Shown here piece after piece: positions 19,840 to 26,623 of a stretch of DNA of 49,334 bases (position 1 is its first letter; each line of letters opens with the position of its first letter). The DNA comes from Microscillaceae bacterium (GTDB taxonomy: Bacteria; Bacteroidota; Bacteroidia; Cytophagales; Microscillaceae): assembly GCA_012031215.1 (NCBI GenBank), contig JAAUUB010000007.1:1-49334 (forward strand). Reading direction: 5' to 3'. The notes beneath the pieces are model-generated. The model was not told the origin of the DNA. It did not search any database and saw nothing but the letters and a program-made list of their open reading frames with translations. The translations under genes and the position numbers were made by a program.

Positions 19840-20621
19840 ATGGAACGTACCATTGCCCAGAAGCTGGATGCCCTTCTCAAACTTCAGGAAATCGACTCAA
19901 AACTAGATGAAATCAATACCATTCGGGGAGATTTGCCCGAAGAAGTGCAGGATTTGGAAGACGAGATAGTTGGCTACCAAACCCGTATTCAGAAGTTTAA
20001 AGAAGAGGTGAAAGGCTTTAATGAGGAAATCAATAGCAAGAAAGCCCGCAAGAAAGAAGCCGAAAAGCTCATTGAGAAATACAAAGAGCAGCAAATGAAT
20101 GTGCGCAACAACCGCGAGTATGAGGCCATTCTAAAAGAAATAGAATCGGAAGAGCTAGAAATTCAACTGGCGGATAAAAAAAATTCGGGAGGCCAACGAG
20201 AAAATCGTTAAGAAAAACGAGGAAATTGCCCAGACCGAGGCCATTTTAGAGGAGCGTAATAATGACCTTTCTCTCAAGCAAAAAGAACTGGATTTGCTGA
20301 TGCAAGAAAGCCGGGGCGACGAAGAAAAACTCCTCAAAAGAGCGCGAAAAGCAATCAAAAAATGTGGAAGAGCGGCTTTTGCGTTCTTATGAAAAAATTC
20401 GCAGCAATGCCATCAATGGCCTGGCCATTGTGCCCGTGCGGCGGAGTGCCTGCGGGGGTTGCTTTGCCATTGTGCCCCCACAGCGGCAGGCCGAGATTCG
20501 GGAGCGGAAAAAAATCATTGTTTGTGAACACTGCGGGCGCATTCTGGCGGGTGTGGATGAGCGCGAGGAAGTAGAAGAAGAAAAGCCCTTGAAAAAAACC
20601 CGTAAGTTGAAAGTAGAATAA
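19840..20621 (+). CDS. CT398-like coiled-coil zinc-ribbon protein, frame-disrupted
   Basis: About 260 residues. ATG at 19840 opens a long charged coiled coil (KLDALLKLQEIDSKLDEI, then KARKKEAEKLIEKY). The C-terminal part has the four-cysteine zinc ribbon CGGC...CEHC (CGGCFAIVPP and IVCEHCGRILAG), the DUF164/CT398 signature. Two frame changes are needed, at the A-run near 20173-20185 and near 20338-20345. The middle frame reads REANEKIVKKNEEIAQTEAI and the last EERLLRSYEKIRSNAINGLA, continuing the coil. Family members are linked to flagellar or RpoN-related processes in Chlamydia; the role in Bacteroidota is unknown. Confidence 0.85.
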
Positions 20622-20685: not shown

Positions 20686-21414
20686 TCAGGCACGCGGCAT
20701 CACAAAAGCCAGCAGAATGTAAATGGGAATAGAAACGCCCCCGCCAAAGATAACCCCCAGGATAAAAGCAATTCTGACCCAGGTTGGGTCAATGCCGAAA
20801 TACTCGGCAATGCCCGCACAAACCCCAAATATTTTCTTATCGCGGTTAGATTTGCGCAGGCGGCGGTTGTCTTCCAGGCTCAAGCCTTCGCTTCTTAGAA
20901 TCTCTTCCACCCTTGAAGCCGAAAGATTGCTCAAATCTTTTTGAAAAGATTTACCCTTGAGCCCTCCCAGCGAGGAAACCGAAGTTTTGCCAGTCCCCCG
21001 GTTTAGCTCGGCCGAAAGCCGAAATGAAAGCTCATGGTGAGGGTCCACGTGCAAGGCTTTTTTGACATAATTTTTGGCTTTTTGCAGGTCGTCTTTATGA
21101 TTCCGGAGCTGGCCCCGGTTTTTGTAGGCATTGGCCAGGCCATAGAGGGCATCTAGGTCGTTAGGGTGGAGGGCCAGGGCTTGCTCATATTCTTCTATGG
21201 CACTGTCCCAGTCCTCATAACGGCTGTAACCTTTGCCCCGGGCCAGGTAGTCATTCCGCTTTTTTTGGATAAAAGCCAAATCCTCCTCGCTCAGCCCCAG
21301 GTCGCGGGCAATTCGGGTCATTTCTTCTGGGTCGAGTGGGCGCTCGCGCTGCTCTTGCTGAAGCTGTAAGACCATCTGAACGTAAGCCTTAATCGTTTCT
21401 TCGGATTGGCTCAT
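20686..21414 (-). CDS. TPR-PspC domain fusion protein
   Basis: 242 residues, intact. ATG at 21414 (MSQSEETIKAYVQM). The first part is helical with a DLGLSEEDLAFI motif. About residues 60-125 hold TPR units (WDSAIEEYEQALALHPNDLDALYGLANAY). The C-terminal 60 residues are a PspC domain (RKSNRDKKIFGVCAGIAEYFGIDP-type, then WVRIAFILGV) with one or two membrane segments ending YILLAFVMPRA. PspC in enterobacteria senses membrane stress and binds PspA; no pspA-like gene is here. The N-terminal part is probably cytosolic. The start is supported by charge and continuity rather than by a visible RBS. Confidence 0.85.
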   Translation of the reverse strand: MSQSEETIKAYVQMVLQLQQEQRERPLDPEEMTRIARDLGLSEEDLAFIQKKRNDYLARGKGYSRYEDWDSAIEEYEQALALHPNDLDALYGLANAYKNRGQLRNHKDDLQKAKNYVKKALHVDPHHELSFRLSAELNRGTGKTSVSSLGGLKGKSFQKDLSNLSASRVEEILRSEGLSLEDNRRLRKSNRDKKIFGVCAGIAEYFGIDPTWVRIAFILGVIFGGGVSIPIYILLAFVMPRA

Positions 21415-21596
21415 GCGCAATTGACTAATTATGCCTTCGGGGTTTTATCCCTTTATTGGTTTAGTTGTAAATAGCAATTTATTTTATAATCCTTTGGGCC
21501 TAAGTGGCATTGGGTCCTGTTCATTTTGCCTCTTTGGGAAGGAAGCATTATTGTCGCGACAAATTTATACTTTCTCCACGAATTGGCTTTATTTTT

Positions 21597-22400
21597 TTAT
21601 CCCGCCGACTGCAAATAAGCCTGCGGTTGACGCAAAAAGTTTAAAGAGATTTGATTAAATGCATCGGGCTGGTCAATATTGACCACGTGTCCACAGTCTT
21701 TGAGGATTGCCAGGGCGGAGTTTTGGTGAATTTTAACAATCTTTTTTACCTGAGGCAGGAACATGTGGTCTTCCTCCCCCATGATGTAGAGGGTGGGGAT
21801 GGGCAGCTCCCGCTCATTGAAATATTTAAGCAGTGGGTTGACCTCAGAAGTGAGCTGATACCAGCGCAAAAACTCCTTTTGATACAATCGCTTGGCCTCC
21901 CGGATAAACATCAACCGGGATTTACGATGCCGTTTGCGGGGCATTATCACCCAGGCAAAAAGTGAATAAATCCACATATAGGGCACCCAGCGCTTGATGA
22001 CACTGCCCAGGCGCATCAAAATCTTGGAGCGGATATTGAGCCGGATAACGGCTCCGCCCAGGGTCATAGACCGGACTCTGTCGGGGGCCAGTTCGCCAAT
22101 GGTGCGAATGATAATGCTGGCCAGGGATATGCCCACAAAATGCGCCGAGACGATGCCATTATGGTCCATCACCTCTATCACATCGCGGCTGATGTCTTTA
22201 AAAGTATAACGGTTCTTGAGATAGTCCTGAAAAAAGTGCTTAGAACGCCCATGCCCCCGTAAATCCAGCAGCAAAACATTGTACTGCTCTTTGAAGGTGC
22301 GAATCTGACGATACCAAACCGAGGAACTCCCCCCGGCTCCGTGCACAAAAATCACCCATTCTTTTTGGGGGTCCAGTTCATATTTTTTGTAATACAGCAT
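21597..22400 (-). CDS. Alpha/beta hydrolase
   Basis: 267 residues, intact. The fold is shown by WVIFVHGAGGSSSVW (oxyanion loop), LLLDLRGHGRSKHF and the nucleophile elbow FVGISLASI (G-x-S-x-A, with Ala where Gly is usual). The acid is probably in YIMGEEDHMFLP and the histidine in DCGHVVNIDQPD. No signal peptide is visible; one segment (KRWVPYMWIYSLFAWVIMP) is hydrophobic and may form the lid or touch a membrane. Substrate unknown. Confidence 0.85.
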   Translation of the reverse strand: MLYYKKYELDPQKEWVIFVHGAGGSSSVWYRQIRTFKEQYNVLLLDLRGHGRSKHFFQDYLKNRYTFKDISRDVIEVMDHNGIVSAHFVGISLASIIIRTIGELAPDRVRSMTLGGAVIRLNIRSKILMRLGSVIKRWVPYMWIYSLFAWVIMPRKRHRKSRLMFIREAKRLYQKEFLRWYQLTSEVNPLLKYFNERELPIPTLYIMGEEDHMFLPQVKKIVKIHQNSALAILKDCGHVVNIDQPDAFNQISLNFLRQPQAYLQSAG

Positions 22401-22484
22401 ATCTATTTGCTTATCTTAGGCCAATATAGGCGAGGAATTGAGCAATATTTGCGAATGTACTAAAATATCCGCAAATATTTCGCC

Positions 22485-22991
22485 TTAAGAGGCCGGGATA
22501 AAGTGCCAACCTACTTTTTTATTGGCCAATATTTGTAGTACCTCTTGCACACTGGGCTCCTGAGCCAGGGCCGCCGGCCCAAATAATATCACCAGCAATT
22601 GCCCTTCGCCATAGCGCCGCTGGCGATACAGTTCAATTTGGCCCAAAAAGCGATTCCTTTCATTGCCTTTGCGAAGCATTTCGGCCATTTTGATTTCAAT
22701 GCCCAGTTGCCCTTCGCCCAGGTCTATGTCCACCCGCTCACGCCGCGATTGTGGCCCCGCAACCGGATATTGGGTTTGAACCTGCACAAAACGCTTTTGC
22801 AATAGCCGTGAAAGCCATTCTTCCACCGCACTCTCGCCCGCTTGCCCCAGGCAGGCAGGCGGGGGCGGCAACTGGGCCAAAAAACGACGTAAATTGCGCA
22901 AGGTGGGGGCTTTTCTTTGTTTTTTATGCCAGGATTTTAACCCGTAGGCCAGGCTGGCCGACAATACTCCTAGTAATATTGGAAAAAACAT
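22485..22991 (-). CDS. Membrane-anchored PD-(D/E)XK-like protein
   Basis: 168 residues, intact. Residues 1-18 are a hydrophobic N-terminal segment (FFPILLGVLSASLAYGL) followed by basic residues, so the domain would face the cytosol. The rest matches the PD-(D/E)XK nuclease plan: a helix with Glu53 and Glu57-58 (AGESAVEEWL), Asp88/Asp90 (RVDIDLGEG), E-x-K at 99-101 (LGIEIKM) and a helix with Gln118 (FLGQIELY). A final strand is GQLLVILFG. I do not recognise a named family. The catalytic set is complete, but nuclease activity is inferred. The neighbours on either side are an alpha/beta hydrolase gene and a CPBP protease gene on the other strand. Confidence 0.6.
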   Translation of the reverse strand: MFFPILLGVLSASLAYGLKSWHKKQRKAPTLRNLRRFLAQLPPPPACLGQAGESAVEEWLSRLLQKRFVQVQTQYPVAGPQSRRERVDIDLGEGQLGIEIKMAEMLRKGNERNRFLGQIELYRQRRYGEGQLLVILFGPAALAQEPSVQEVLQILANKKVGWHFIPAS

Positions 22992-23066: not shown

Positions 23067-23988
23067 TTGAAACAAATCTGGCACTATCTCCAATTATTTT
23101 TGCAGGCCCAGCGCTTTGTAAGCTTTTGGGCCGCTTGGGTCTTGATGTTGGGGTTTTGCCTGGTTTTGCGCTATGGCTTTGGCTATCGGCCCGGTACTGG
23201 GGAAGGCAAGCTGGCCCTACTGGAAGGAATCTTGTTTTTTCCAATGGCCTTTTTTGGTACACTTCTCATTTACAGCCTTTTTACTGGCCGGGGGCGATTT
23301 TGGCAAGAGACCTCTTTTTGGATGCTGAGTAGCCTGATCTTAGGGGCTTTGTGGTGGGTGCAGTTTGGCACTTTTTACGAATACTGGCTGCCGCAAACCG
23401 AAACCTCCGGCCGAAAGTGGTATGCCCGGCTTGCCTACAATCTGCACGTGTCTTTTTTTTTATGGCTTTGTTCCTTTGGGCTATGGCCTTTGGCGGGAAC
23501 AATGGCAGGCTACCCGGGGATATGGCCTAATGGCTCCGGCATTTACTTTGAAGCCTTATGGCTGGATGCTGGCTTTGATGGTTCCTCTGCTCATTGCAGT
23601 CTCCTATTTACCCGATTTTCAGCTTGCTTACCCGCGCTATAAGCCCGGAGCCTGGGAATATTATCGGGGCATTTGGCCTGCTTACACCATCATTGGCTTT
23701 GAGCTAAGTTATGTTTTGCAATTTGTGATGCTGGAGCTCTTTTTCCGGGGTTTTATGGTAATGGCTTTGCGCCCTTTTTTAGGAGAAGCCGCCGTATTTC
23801 CGATGGTGGGAGTGTATGTGTTTTTACATTTCAGCAAGCCCCTGGCCGAAACCCTCGGCTCTTTTTTTGGAGGCTTGGTGCTGGGCAGCACGGCTTTCTA
23901 TTCGGGCAGCATCCTGGGGGGTATTTTGGTGCACGTAGGAGTGGCCCTGTTGATGGAAGCCCTGGCCTATTGGCAAATTTGGGCTTGA
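23067..23988 (+). CDS. CPBP-family intramembrane protease, frame-disrupted
   Basis: About 305 residues with many membrane segments. The start is probably the TTG at 23067 (MKQIWHYLQLF); no ATG lies between it and the upstream stop. The frame changes in a nine-T run near 23452-23460, and the two parts join as YNLHVSFFYGFVPLGYGLWR. The CPBP (Rce1-like) core follows: LELFFRGFMVMA (one Glu, where EE is usual), VGVYVFLHFSKP with His, and ILGGILVHVGVALLME. Family members cleave membrane-bound substrates or act in bacteriocin immunity. The single-Glu variant of motif 1 should be noted; activity is not certain. Confidence 0.8.
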
Positions 23989-24172: not shown

Positions 24173-25871
24173 TGTCTCAAAAAATTCAAAACGCCGCCCT
24201 TCTTACTCCACAAACCCATAAGGCTATTTTGCAACATCGCACTTTGGCTTGGCTTGTTCAGTTGTCATAGCCCGCAAAAAGTAGATTTCATTCTTCACAA
24301 TGCCAAGGTTTATACCGTAGATGAGCAGTTTTCCGTCGCCCAGGCTTTTGCGGTCAAATCGGGTCGTTTTGTTGCGGTTGGCTCCTCGGAGGAAATTTTG
24401 AAAAACTATAAGGCCGACAAAATCATCGATGCCCGGGGCAAACCCGTTTACCCAGGCTTTATTGATGCCCACTGCCACTTTTACAATTACGGCCGGTTCT
24501 TGCAGGAGGTAAACCTGGTAGGCACAAAATCCTACGCCGAAGTCCTGGAAAAACTAGTAGCCCATCGGCAGGAACACCCTGAAGAGCCCTGGATTGTGGG
24601 CCGGGGTTGGGACCAAAACGATTGGGCGGGCCTTGAATTTCCCAATAAATCTCCGCTTGACTCCCTCTTTCCCAACACCCCCGTCTATCTCACCCGGATT
24701 GATGGCCACGCGGCACTGGTGAACCAAAAAGCGCTTGACCAGGCGGGAATTGCCTATCCCCCCCAAGCCCTTGAAGGAGGGCTCATTGAGGCCAGAGACG
24801 GTCGGCTCACGGGCATCTTGGTGGACAATGCCTGTGACCTGGTCAATGCCAAAATTCCGGCCCCTTCGGCCAAAGCCCGCCAAAAGGCGCTTTTTGAAGC
24901 CCAGGAAAAGTGCTTTGCCGTAGGCCTGACCAGTGTGCACGATGCAGGACTGCCCCGCCAGGTGCTCGAAACCATTGCGCAAATGCATCGGGAGCAAACC
25001 CTGAAAATGCGTGTTTATGCGATGATTGGCGGCGAAGGGCCTGACCTGGACTACTACCTCCAAAAAGACCGCAAAAGGAGATTTCCTGAGCATCAGCAGT
25101 GTAAAGCTTTATGCCGATGGCGCGCTTGGTTCAAGGGGGGCCTGCCTGCTGGCCCCTTATGCCGACCGCCCCAAAGAAACAGGCTTTTTACTGGCTTCGC
25201 CCGAAAAACTGGAAGCCCGTATCCGAAAAATTGGCGCCAAAGGCTTTCAGGTCAATACCCATTGTATTGGCGATTCGGCCAACCGGCTTGTGCTTTCCAT
25301 TTATGGAAAAGTCTTAAAGGGCCAAAATGAGCTGCGCTGGCGTATAGAACATGCCCAAGTGATTCACCCTCAAGATTTTGCACTTTTCAAACAATACCAA
25401 ATCATCCCCTCTGTCCAACCTACCCATGCCACTTCGGATATGTTTTGGGCCGCCGACCGCCTGGGGCCCGAACGACTGCGCGGAGCCTATGCCTGGAAAT
25501 CGCTCCTGGCGCAAAACCAGGTGCTGGCCGCCGGCAGTGACTTCCCGGTGGAAGACATCAATCCGCTCTATGGCTTCCACGCCGCCATCGCCCGCCAAAA
25601 TGCGGAAGGAAAACCCGCCGGAGGTTTTCAAATGGAAAATGCCCTGACCCGCGAAGAAGCCCTCCGTGCCATGACTATCTGGGCGGCTTATGCCGCTTTT
25701 GAAGAAAAGACCAAAGGAACTATCCAAAAAGGAATGGTGGCCGATTTTGTACTATTGGAAGATGACCTGATGCAAGCCCCCCTCGAGGCACTGCGCTCCA
25801 TCAAAGTAAGTCAGACTTATCTCAACGGAGAACTGGTCTATCAGCCTTTGAAAAAAGGAGCTGAAGAGTAG
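24173..25871 (+). CDS. YtcJ-type amidohydrolase, probable lipoprotein, frame-disrupted
   Basis: About 565 residues. The N terminus reads well only if the A-run in codons 3-5 after ATG 24173 is corrected by one base: MSQK..., then RLFCNIALWLGLFSC, a lipobox-like signal. The enzyme part has the metal motif IDAHCHF, SSVKLYADGALGSRGA, VNTHCIGDSANR, RIEHAQ and GSDFPVEDINPL, the YtcJ/N-substituted formamide deformylase group. A second frame change lies in the A-run near 25073-25077; removing one A gives KDRKGDFLSISS. It likely hydrolyses an amide or related bond on the outside of the cell. Substrate unknown. Confidence 0.87.
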
Positions 25872-25931: not shown

Positions 25932-26623
25932 ATGCAACAATCTGGTATTTGGTTTTTTGATGATGTCAATCTCTTTGATTTCTTCTGCCCGCACCGCTTA
26001 AAAGAGTATCAGGGAAAACATGCATTCAAGGAATATCAAAAGGGAGAATACATTTATTTTTCCCAGGACCCGGCCAACAAAATCTTTCTGGTGATAGAAG
26101 GCAAGGTCAAAATTTCTTTTTGTACGCCCGACGGTCGCGAGATTTCCAAGATGGTGCTTGAGACGGGAGAGATGTTTGGCGAACAGGCCCTTTTTGGGGT
26201 AGAACAACGCAATGATACGGCGCAGGCCATTTCCGAAAAACCGTGCTTTGTCCTTTGGATGTAGAAACAATGCACGAGCTGATGCGGACCTACCGCACTT
26301 TCAGCTTCAAGGTCTATAAAACGGTGGGCACACGCATTGAAAAACTGGAGCGCAAAATTGAGTCGCTCATCTCCAAAGATGTCAAAACCCGTTTATTGGA
26401 GTTTCTATGCGAGATGGCTCACGAAAGAGGCCGAAAAGCAGGTACGGAAACACTGGTGATGCATTCATTGACCCAAAAAGACATTGCCGACCTTATTGGC
26501 ACTTCCAGGCAAACGGTTACCACCTTGCTCAATGAGTTTAAAGAGCAAAACCTGATTTATTTTGACCGGAAACGCATCCTCATCCGCGATTTGCAAAAGC
26601 TCAGCAATTTGATAAGCACTTAG
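25932..26623 (+). CDS. Crp/Fnr family transcriptional regulator, frame-disrupted
   Basis: About 230 residues. The N-terminal cyclic-nucleotide-binding fold has GEYIYFSQDPANKIFLVIEGKV and the phosphate-loop region GEMFGEQALFGVE. A long dimer helix (RIEKLERKIESLISKDVKTR) leads the winged helix with recognition helix TSRQTVTTLLNEF. One frame change lies in the A-run near 26236-26240: the two sides join as ISEKTVLCPLDVETM. No cysteine cluster of Fnr type is seen, so the signal is not oxygen through an iron-sulfur cluster. A palindrome sits just upstream. Confidence 0.9.

Follow-up and report, generated by a model that had tools for sequence, protein, structure and literature searches.

What might a bacterium use a nuclease fold for when the fold is fixed to its membrane in a protein of 168 amino acids? 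The question is raised by one open reading frame in a 49,334-nucleotide stretch of contig JAAUUB010000007.1 (GenBank assembly GCA_012031215.1, a Microscillaceae bacterium), which is referred to here as the window. A first-pass annotation had read this frame as a membrane-tethered PD-(D/E)XK-like protein without a known family, and had named seven of its residues as a nuclease-type set (Glu53/57, Asp88/90, E99-x-K101 and Gln118). The assignment was confirmed: the minus-strand frame encodes one N-terminal membrane helix followed by a predicted PD-(D/E)XK domain, and the residue numbering was correct. A DNA search placed the gene at a single site in its own genome. The features of the protein are as follows.

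22485..22991, minus strand: open reading frame of the tethered PD-(D/E)XK protein, 168 amino acids plus stop, ATG start, intact
22914..22988, minus strand: N-terminal membrane helix, residues 2-26 (hydrophobic core about 2-18), then basic KSWHKKQRK (model and hydropathy)
22494..22835, minus strand: PD-(D/E)XK nuclease-fold domain, residues 53-166 (AlphaFold, VIA-align and alignment)
22833..22835, minus strand: E53, the motif I glutamate, in the first helix of the fold (13/13 family members, 20/21 in the wider set)
22689..22730, minus strand: D88-x-D90 (strand 86-91) and E99-x-K101 (strand 96-102), the predicted metal-binding/catalytic core (alignment and model)
22638..22640, minus strand: Q118, in the second core helix, near R114, G117 and Y122 (all four invariant, 13/13)

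Homologues from the same family of bacteria were aligned in 13 rows, two of which (G006 and G007) are one residue apart. The members are 164-179 amino acids long and share 29-42% identity with the window protein. Seventeen columns are invariant, including E53, D88, D90, E99, K101 and Q118; E57 is nearly invariant, and the middle residue of E-x-K is I, V or L. Six of the seven positions that had been named from a single sequence are thus invariant in 13/13, which with 17 invariant positions in 168 gives a hypergeometric p of 2.9e-6, a value that takes no account of relatedness or of the frequent conservation of charged residues; the full residue set is real and beyond chance. When eight distant relatives were added to the 13 family members (L011 and L012 included), D88, E99, K101 and Y122 were found in all 21 rows, E53 and Q118 in 20 and D90 in 18. 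Relatives lacking E-x-K, which the annotation had named as evidence against its reading, were not seen in this set, as the motif is kept in 13/13 family members and 8/8 distant relatives.

A structure predicted by AlphaFold from the 13-sequence alignment (mean pLDDT 90.3, pTM 0.80) consists of helix 2-26, short helices 31-39 and 46-49, helix 53-67, strands 71-76, 86-91 and 96-102, helices 103-107 and 109-127, strand 132-138, helices 140-144 and 146-157, and strand 161-166. DSSP of this model gives the alpha-beta-beta-beta-alpha-beta core of PD-(D/E)XK nucleases, with an acidic motif II residue (D88) and the (D/E)-x-K of the next strand (E99, K101) present in every row of both alignments. E53 falls in helix 53-67, D88 and D90 in strand 86-91, E99 and K101 in strand 96-102, and Q118 in helix 109-127, which are the canonical positions of these six conserved residues in the fold. 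Comparison of the model with solved structures, as the annotation had proposed, likewise pointed to a PD-(D/E)XK arrangement; a model of some other fold, the second outcome that the annotation had named as evidence against itself, was not obtained. The top rows from VIA-align were Can2 (8bao; Z 8.0, rmsd 3.5, 106 aligned) and EndoMS (5gke; 7.9, 3.5, 101), followed by the XisH-like 2okf (7.7, 3.5, 110) and SfsA (4dap; 7.7, 3.1, 108), with FANCM-FAAP24 and BglII also among them. The best rows are mostly nuclease folds, but the maximum Z of 8.0 is middling by the tool's own scale and may reflect a common arrangement only, and TIR-domain proteins, which are not nucleases, also matched at Z 6.0-6.5, a point counted against the assignment. 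Foldseek returned no PDB match at E <= 0.001 (the best was Mus81-Eme1, 0.016) and three matches in BFVD, none of which names a function; the best of these is an uncharacterised protein of Tetraselmis virus 1 (E 9.8e-5, TM 0.48/0.54). With middling Z values and no PDB match in Foldseek, the fold call leans on the order of elements in the model and on the conserved residues more than on structural search.

The N-terminal membrane segment is likewise borne out, both by the model helix and by hydropathy, as all 13 members carry a hydrophobic N-terminal segment (17-residue Kyte-Doolittle mean 1.5 to 3.0). The basic flank of a membrane helix is, by the positive-inside rule, the cytoplasmic one. No lysine or arginine precedes the hydrophobic core in any of the 13 members, and the 20 residues that follow it hold 1-8. 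In three of the 13, one acidic residue lies before the core; after the core, L006 has as many acidic as basic residues, and only one basic residue is present in L004 and in L005. Under this rule the flanking charges suggest that the nuclease domain faces the cytoplasm, in agreement with the inner-face placement first given, and that the protein is probably a single-pass inner-membrane protein with its N-terminus outside.

Assignment to a family is less simple. No family of Pfam or NCBIfam passed its curated cut-off in the 13 members, and the best PADLOC family for any of them reached E 0.0039, so that the statement "without a known family" holds at these thresholds, but it has to be qualified by a sub-threshold link to PF18742 (DpnII-MboI), the nearest Pfam model. 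In 10 of 13 members this model aligned with the catalytic stretch (best E 1.7e-5), short of its 27-bit cut-off (24.8 bits for L003, the member with the best E-value, and 14.7 for the window protein). Profile comparison with three Cytophagales members of PF18742, which are larger at 350-404 amino acids, was weak (hhalign P 0.012, probability 3.6%). Matches to Csn2, LmuA and NsnC in PADLOC, to NFACT-C, NMT_C and similar Pfam families, to NCBIfam families in single members and to three solved chains (E 0.44-1.4) were taken as chance. NERD, YraN/UPF0102 and Mrr are other nuclease-fold families, some of them with membrane segments; the 13 members matched 13 Pfam families at E up to 1, and none of these three is one of them. 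No description of this small-nuclease family was found among the best-ranked matches in the open-licence PMC literature.

In layout the protein is most like COG4741 and RmuC. COG4741 is described as a predicted membrane-anchored nuclease, found mostly in Archaea and represented by TVN1166 of T. volcanium, with an N-terminal helix, a domain predicted to be cytosolic and a minimal nuclease core of about 120 residues (PMC1189080). Its published motif, E-(V/I)D-E(V/I)K (PMC1189080), corresponds to E53, V87-D88 and E99-I-K101 here. The host here is one of the Bacteroidota, in contrast, D90 and Q118 are conserved as well, and nothing was identified as COG4741 in the Pfam and NCBIfam scans of the family. 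RmuC (COG1322, PF02646) is also described as having a PD-(D/E)XK domain behind an N-terminal membrane helix (PMC1189080), and the 168-residue protein has such a transmembrane helix by hydropathy and in the model. RmuC is about 475 amino acids long with long coiled coils, however, whereas in the model of the small protein only short helices lie between the membrane helix and the domain, and PF02646 matched none of the 13 members at E up to 1. We have filed the protein as a new family within a known kind, the membrane-tethered PD-(D/E)XK nucleases, with COG4741 set against it by description only. That RmuC, ShdA (Shield) and COG4741 are all described as joining a membrane helix to a nuclease fold (PMC1189080, PMC10270631) means that the earlier view of such proteins as uncommon needs softening.

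Where does the gene occur? Homologues were found in 13 of 15 genomes of the Microscillaceae, including that of the window, with one copy each, and in 11 of the 12 good genomes (completeness of 90% or more, contamination of 5% or less). When all 15 were searched with a profile, nothing turned up in G003 and only a 13.8-bit fragment in G008, which was set aside as a chance match (E 0.114, interrupted by two stops within 34 columns); G008 has a completeness of 82%, and the gene is present in G009, a genome of the same genus. Of 148 genomes sampled from the order, 13 matched, 10 of them from the same family, and a profile search of the class sample matched 6 of 395, window genome included. A peptide-pattern scan of genome contigs with the single protein found no relative, and an alignment-based scan found nine loci, all already among the family homologues. 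Searches by tblastn (E 0.001) gave no homologue in 50,697 phage records or 72,556 plasmid records, and a pattern scan of viral contigs gave none. The best reading of this distribution is a near-core, vertically kept gene of one bacterial family.

The proposal that we tentatively favour, at somewhat less than an even chance, is a single-pass inner-membrane PD-(D/E)XK DNase at the cytoplasmic face, for which RmuC-like genome upkeep is a likelier main task than dedicated phage defence. A metal-dependent DNase domain would be held at the inner membrane, where the tether would keep it off most of the nucleoid and so limit damage to the chromosome; only DNA that reaches the membrane would then be cut, whether intermediates of repair or recombination, stray DNA ends or foreign DNA entering the cell. 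For the tether as a safety device there is a precedent by analogy, as ShdA without its anchor could not be cloned (PMC10270631) and SNIPE without its anchor is reported to be highly toxic on induction (PMC13190303). The reading frame, predicted fold, residue conservation, membrane segment, distribution and purifying selection come directly from computation, whereas the orientation in the membrane, the nuclease activity, the substrate and the role are inferred. The conserved active site of the predicted nuclease does not name its substrate, and upkeep is preferred because a single-copy gene is kept through one family in a housekeeping setting. RmuC is itself a common housekeeping gene. Purifying selection on the small protein, the lack of homologues in the phage, plasmid and viral-contig searches, the absence of PADLOC matches among ten window neighbours and the distribution of RmuC within the family were counted in the same direction; absence of the coiled-coil/DNA-binding part of RmuC from the 168-residue protein was counted against it.

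SNIPE and Shield ShdA, both described as anti-phage systems, are membrane-tethered nucleases that face the cytoplasm (PMC13190303, PMC10270631), and the layout of one membrane helix and a cytoplasmic nuclease is shared by the protein as predicted here. It could accordingly be a stand-alone guard against phages or plasmids, cutting foreign DNA on entry as SNIPE does and as has been proposed for ShdA, a role that we regard as possible but doubtful. SNIPE uses GIY-YIG and DUF4041 (PMC13190303), of which DUF4041 has no counterpart in the small protein, and ShdA is a protein of about 520 amino acids with an RmuC domain (PMC10270631). That the nearest Pfam model is a restriction-enzyme family speaks for a guard, as does the rate of evolution. 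Median tip length is 0.88 changes per column for the nuclease versus 0.13 for the hydrolase encoded next to it in the window, and dN/dS is 0.11-0.23 in three pairs of genus g9 and 0.04 in G006/G007 (hydrolase, 0.04-0.09). These nuclease values are 5.3, 2.7 and 1.3 times those of the hydrolase in the g9 pairs, ratios that are rough because dS is 0.6-1.1 and near saturation, and 0.7 times in G006/G007. Purifying selection thus acts on a protein that nonetheless evolves quickly. Rapid evolution is common among defence genes, and it was counted against the upkeep reading. Resolution is poor in the nuclease tree, where 2 of 10 inner branches are starred; like the hydrolase tree, it recovers both genera that contain at least two carriers. 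Against a guard stand its near-universal, single-copy presence within one family, the lack of any PADLOC family better than that noted above and the housekeeping genes around it; ten neighbouring reading frames of the window gave no PADLOC match at E 1e-5. Of the functions first offered for the protein, dedicated phage exclusion is therefore less favoured, since the gene is near-universal in one family and lies among housekeeping genes. Whether as guard or as clean-up enzyme, the tethered nuclease may serve DNA at the inner membrane.

The distant relatives place the same domain in other settings. L016, L017 and L030 encode uncharacterised Cytophagales proteins of 251-268 amino acids, scattered over 3 of the 138 sampled order genomes outside the family carriers. 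Their nuclease domain is homologous (hhalign E 2.3e-20 over residues 26-168), but a conserved N-terminal part of about 110 amino acids replaces the membrane helix; L030-L032, judged from their sequences, are soluble relatives that lack an N-terminal hydrophobic segment. Two of the three genes (L030:1454-2209, L016:1444-2199 and L017:1345-2151, all minus strand) were scanned, and neither had an above-cut-off Pfam match. In another family of the class, L043:1486-2250, minus strand (G196:C27:47996-48760), encodes 255 amino acids and has no Pfam match at E 1e-4. As read from the sequence, this protein starts with an apparent signal peptide, after which come a separate membrane segment and a nuclease domain of this type, an arrangement that would give the domain the same orientation. 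A protein of 575 amino acids encoded at L052:4708-6435, plus strand (G378:C9), carries the domain at its C-terminus behind long N-terminal parts and has not kept D90 and Q118. Such multi-part proteins are of a sort seen in defence systems, so this relative is possibly defence-related and would lend the guard role some weight.

A PF02646 search of the 15 family genomes found one RmuC above cut-off, a protein of about 710 amino acids that by eye has a membrane helix and coiled coils, in G003, the only genome more than 90% complete that lacks the tethered nuclease; none of the 13 carriers has one. A sub-cut-off match in G004 (24.4 bits) was rejected as a secreted-looking helical protein, also by eye. 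The incomplete G008 has neither protein, which was counted against the pattern, and the contrast within the family gives a Fisher p of 0.13. In the order sample RmuC is above cut-off in 0 of 10 family carriers versus 62 of 138 other genomes (p = 0.005, uncorrected for relatedness and effectively representing few evolutionary events). Complementarity within the family is suggestive but statistically weak. Many order genomes without the small nuclease (76 of 138) have no RmuC either, so that loss of RmuC does not call for a replacement. The hydrolase tree, built from one gene, nests G003 beside genus g9 (97/95), so that G003 has probably lost the small nuclease. Strict mutual exclusion beyond the family was rejected: five of the eight genomes with distant relatives (G196, whose relative is membrane-anchored, G305, G421, G378 and G116) have RmuC as well, so the nuclease domain as such does not exclude it. 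It is on balance unlikely, if worth stating, that in the Microscillaceae the 168-residue protein, unrelated to RmuC by profile search, has displaced RmuC and does its work, with the nested G003, which lacks it, having RmuC instead. Were this true, the membrane tethering of a PD-(D/E)XK nuclease, rather than the coiled coils of RmuC, would be the essential part of a long-unexplained housekeeping function. A minimal near-core enzyme that is complementary to RmuC in the sampled family genomes would offer a small, testable model of why a cell retains a membrane-fixed DNA-cutting enzyme.

The gene neighbourhood bears on two further roles, and the elements next to the nuclease gene are these.

22444..22479, no strand: inverted repeat with 13-nt arms, 92% complementary, 10 nt between them, within the 84 bp that separate the nuclease gene from the hydrolase gene
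21597..22400, minus strand: alpha/beta hydrolase gene, directly downstream (Pfam PF00561, 6.2e-26)
20686..21420, minus strand: gene of a TPR and PspC-domain protein, third in line, TTG start as listed (Pfam PF04024, 1.7e-23)

The other window neighbours include an acyl-CoA dehydrogenase, two thioredoxin/AhpC-like proteins, a CAAX-protease-like protein, an amidohydrolase, a Crp-type regulator and PorP/SprF, which agrees with the earlier remark that no partner toxin or restriction gene is adjacent. Nor is any competence gene found among the Pfam-named neighbours, which counts against a part in processing DNA taken up at the inner membrane in natural transformation. Such a part would fit the predicted position at the cytoplasmic membrane face, and Shield ShdA is reported to lower transformation efficiency (PMC10270631), but we consider it very unlikely.

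The hydrolase gene follows the nuclease in 6 of 13 loci (G000, G001, G002, G006, G007 and G014) and the TPR-PspC gene is also in line at 5 of the 13. PspC is a domain of envelope-stress proteins, and the nuclease fold might have been kept for other work, for example in an envelope-stress protein linked to these two neighbours. A close hydrolase homologue (69-77% identity) is present in 15 of 15 family genomes, however, even where the nuclease lies elsewhere or is absent, and the hydrolase-PspC pair occurs without the nuclease in G008 and G013. Together with a complete catalytic set that is invariant in 13/13, this makes non-nuclease work quite improbable. A strict operon partnership with the hydrolase and PspC genes was rejected, as the hydrolase gene is in all 15 genomes yet follows the nuclease in only six of 13 loci; the hydrolase is a frequent neighbour, not an obligatory partner. 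Full-length matches to the TPR-PspC protein were found in 13 of 15 family genomes, with weak TPR matches only in G003, and weak matches plus a contig-edge fragment beside the hydrolase in G009. When the hydrolase tree is rooted at its midpoint, loci with nuclease and hydrolase adjacent fall on either side of the root (weak support), so the adjacency may be ancestral and have been broken later.

Four genes of the window, at 19840-20621, 23067-23988, 24254-25871 and 25932-26623, each seem to run across two reading frames: a gene whose product ends in a C4-type zinc ribbon, the CAAX-protease-like gene, the amidohydrolase and the Crp-type regulator. The CAAX-like gene is one frame of 309 amino acids in G002 (L019), and the splits are either assembly indel errors or real decay. 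The near-perfect inverted repeat between the nuclease and hydrolase genes is a possible operator or hairpin.
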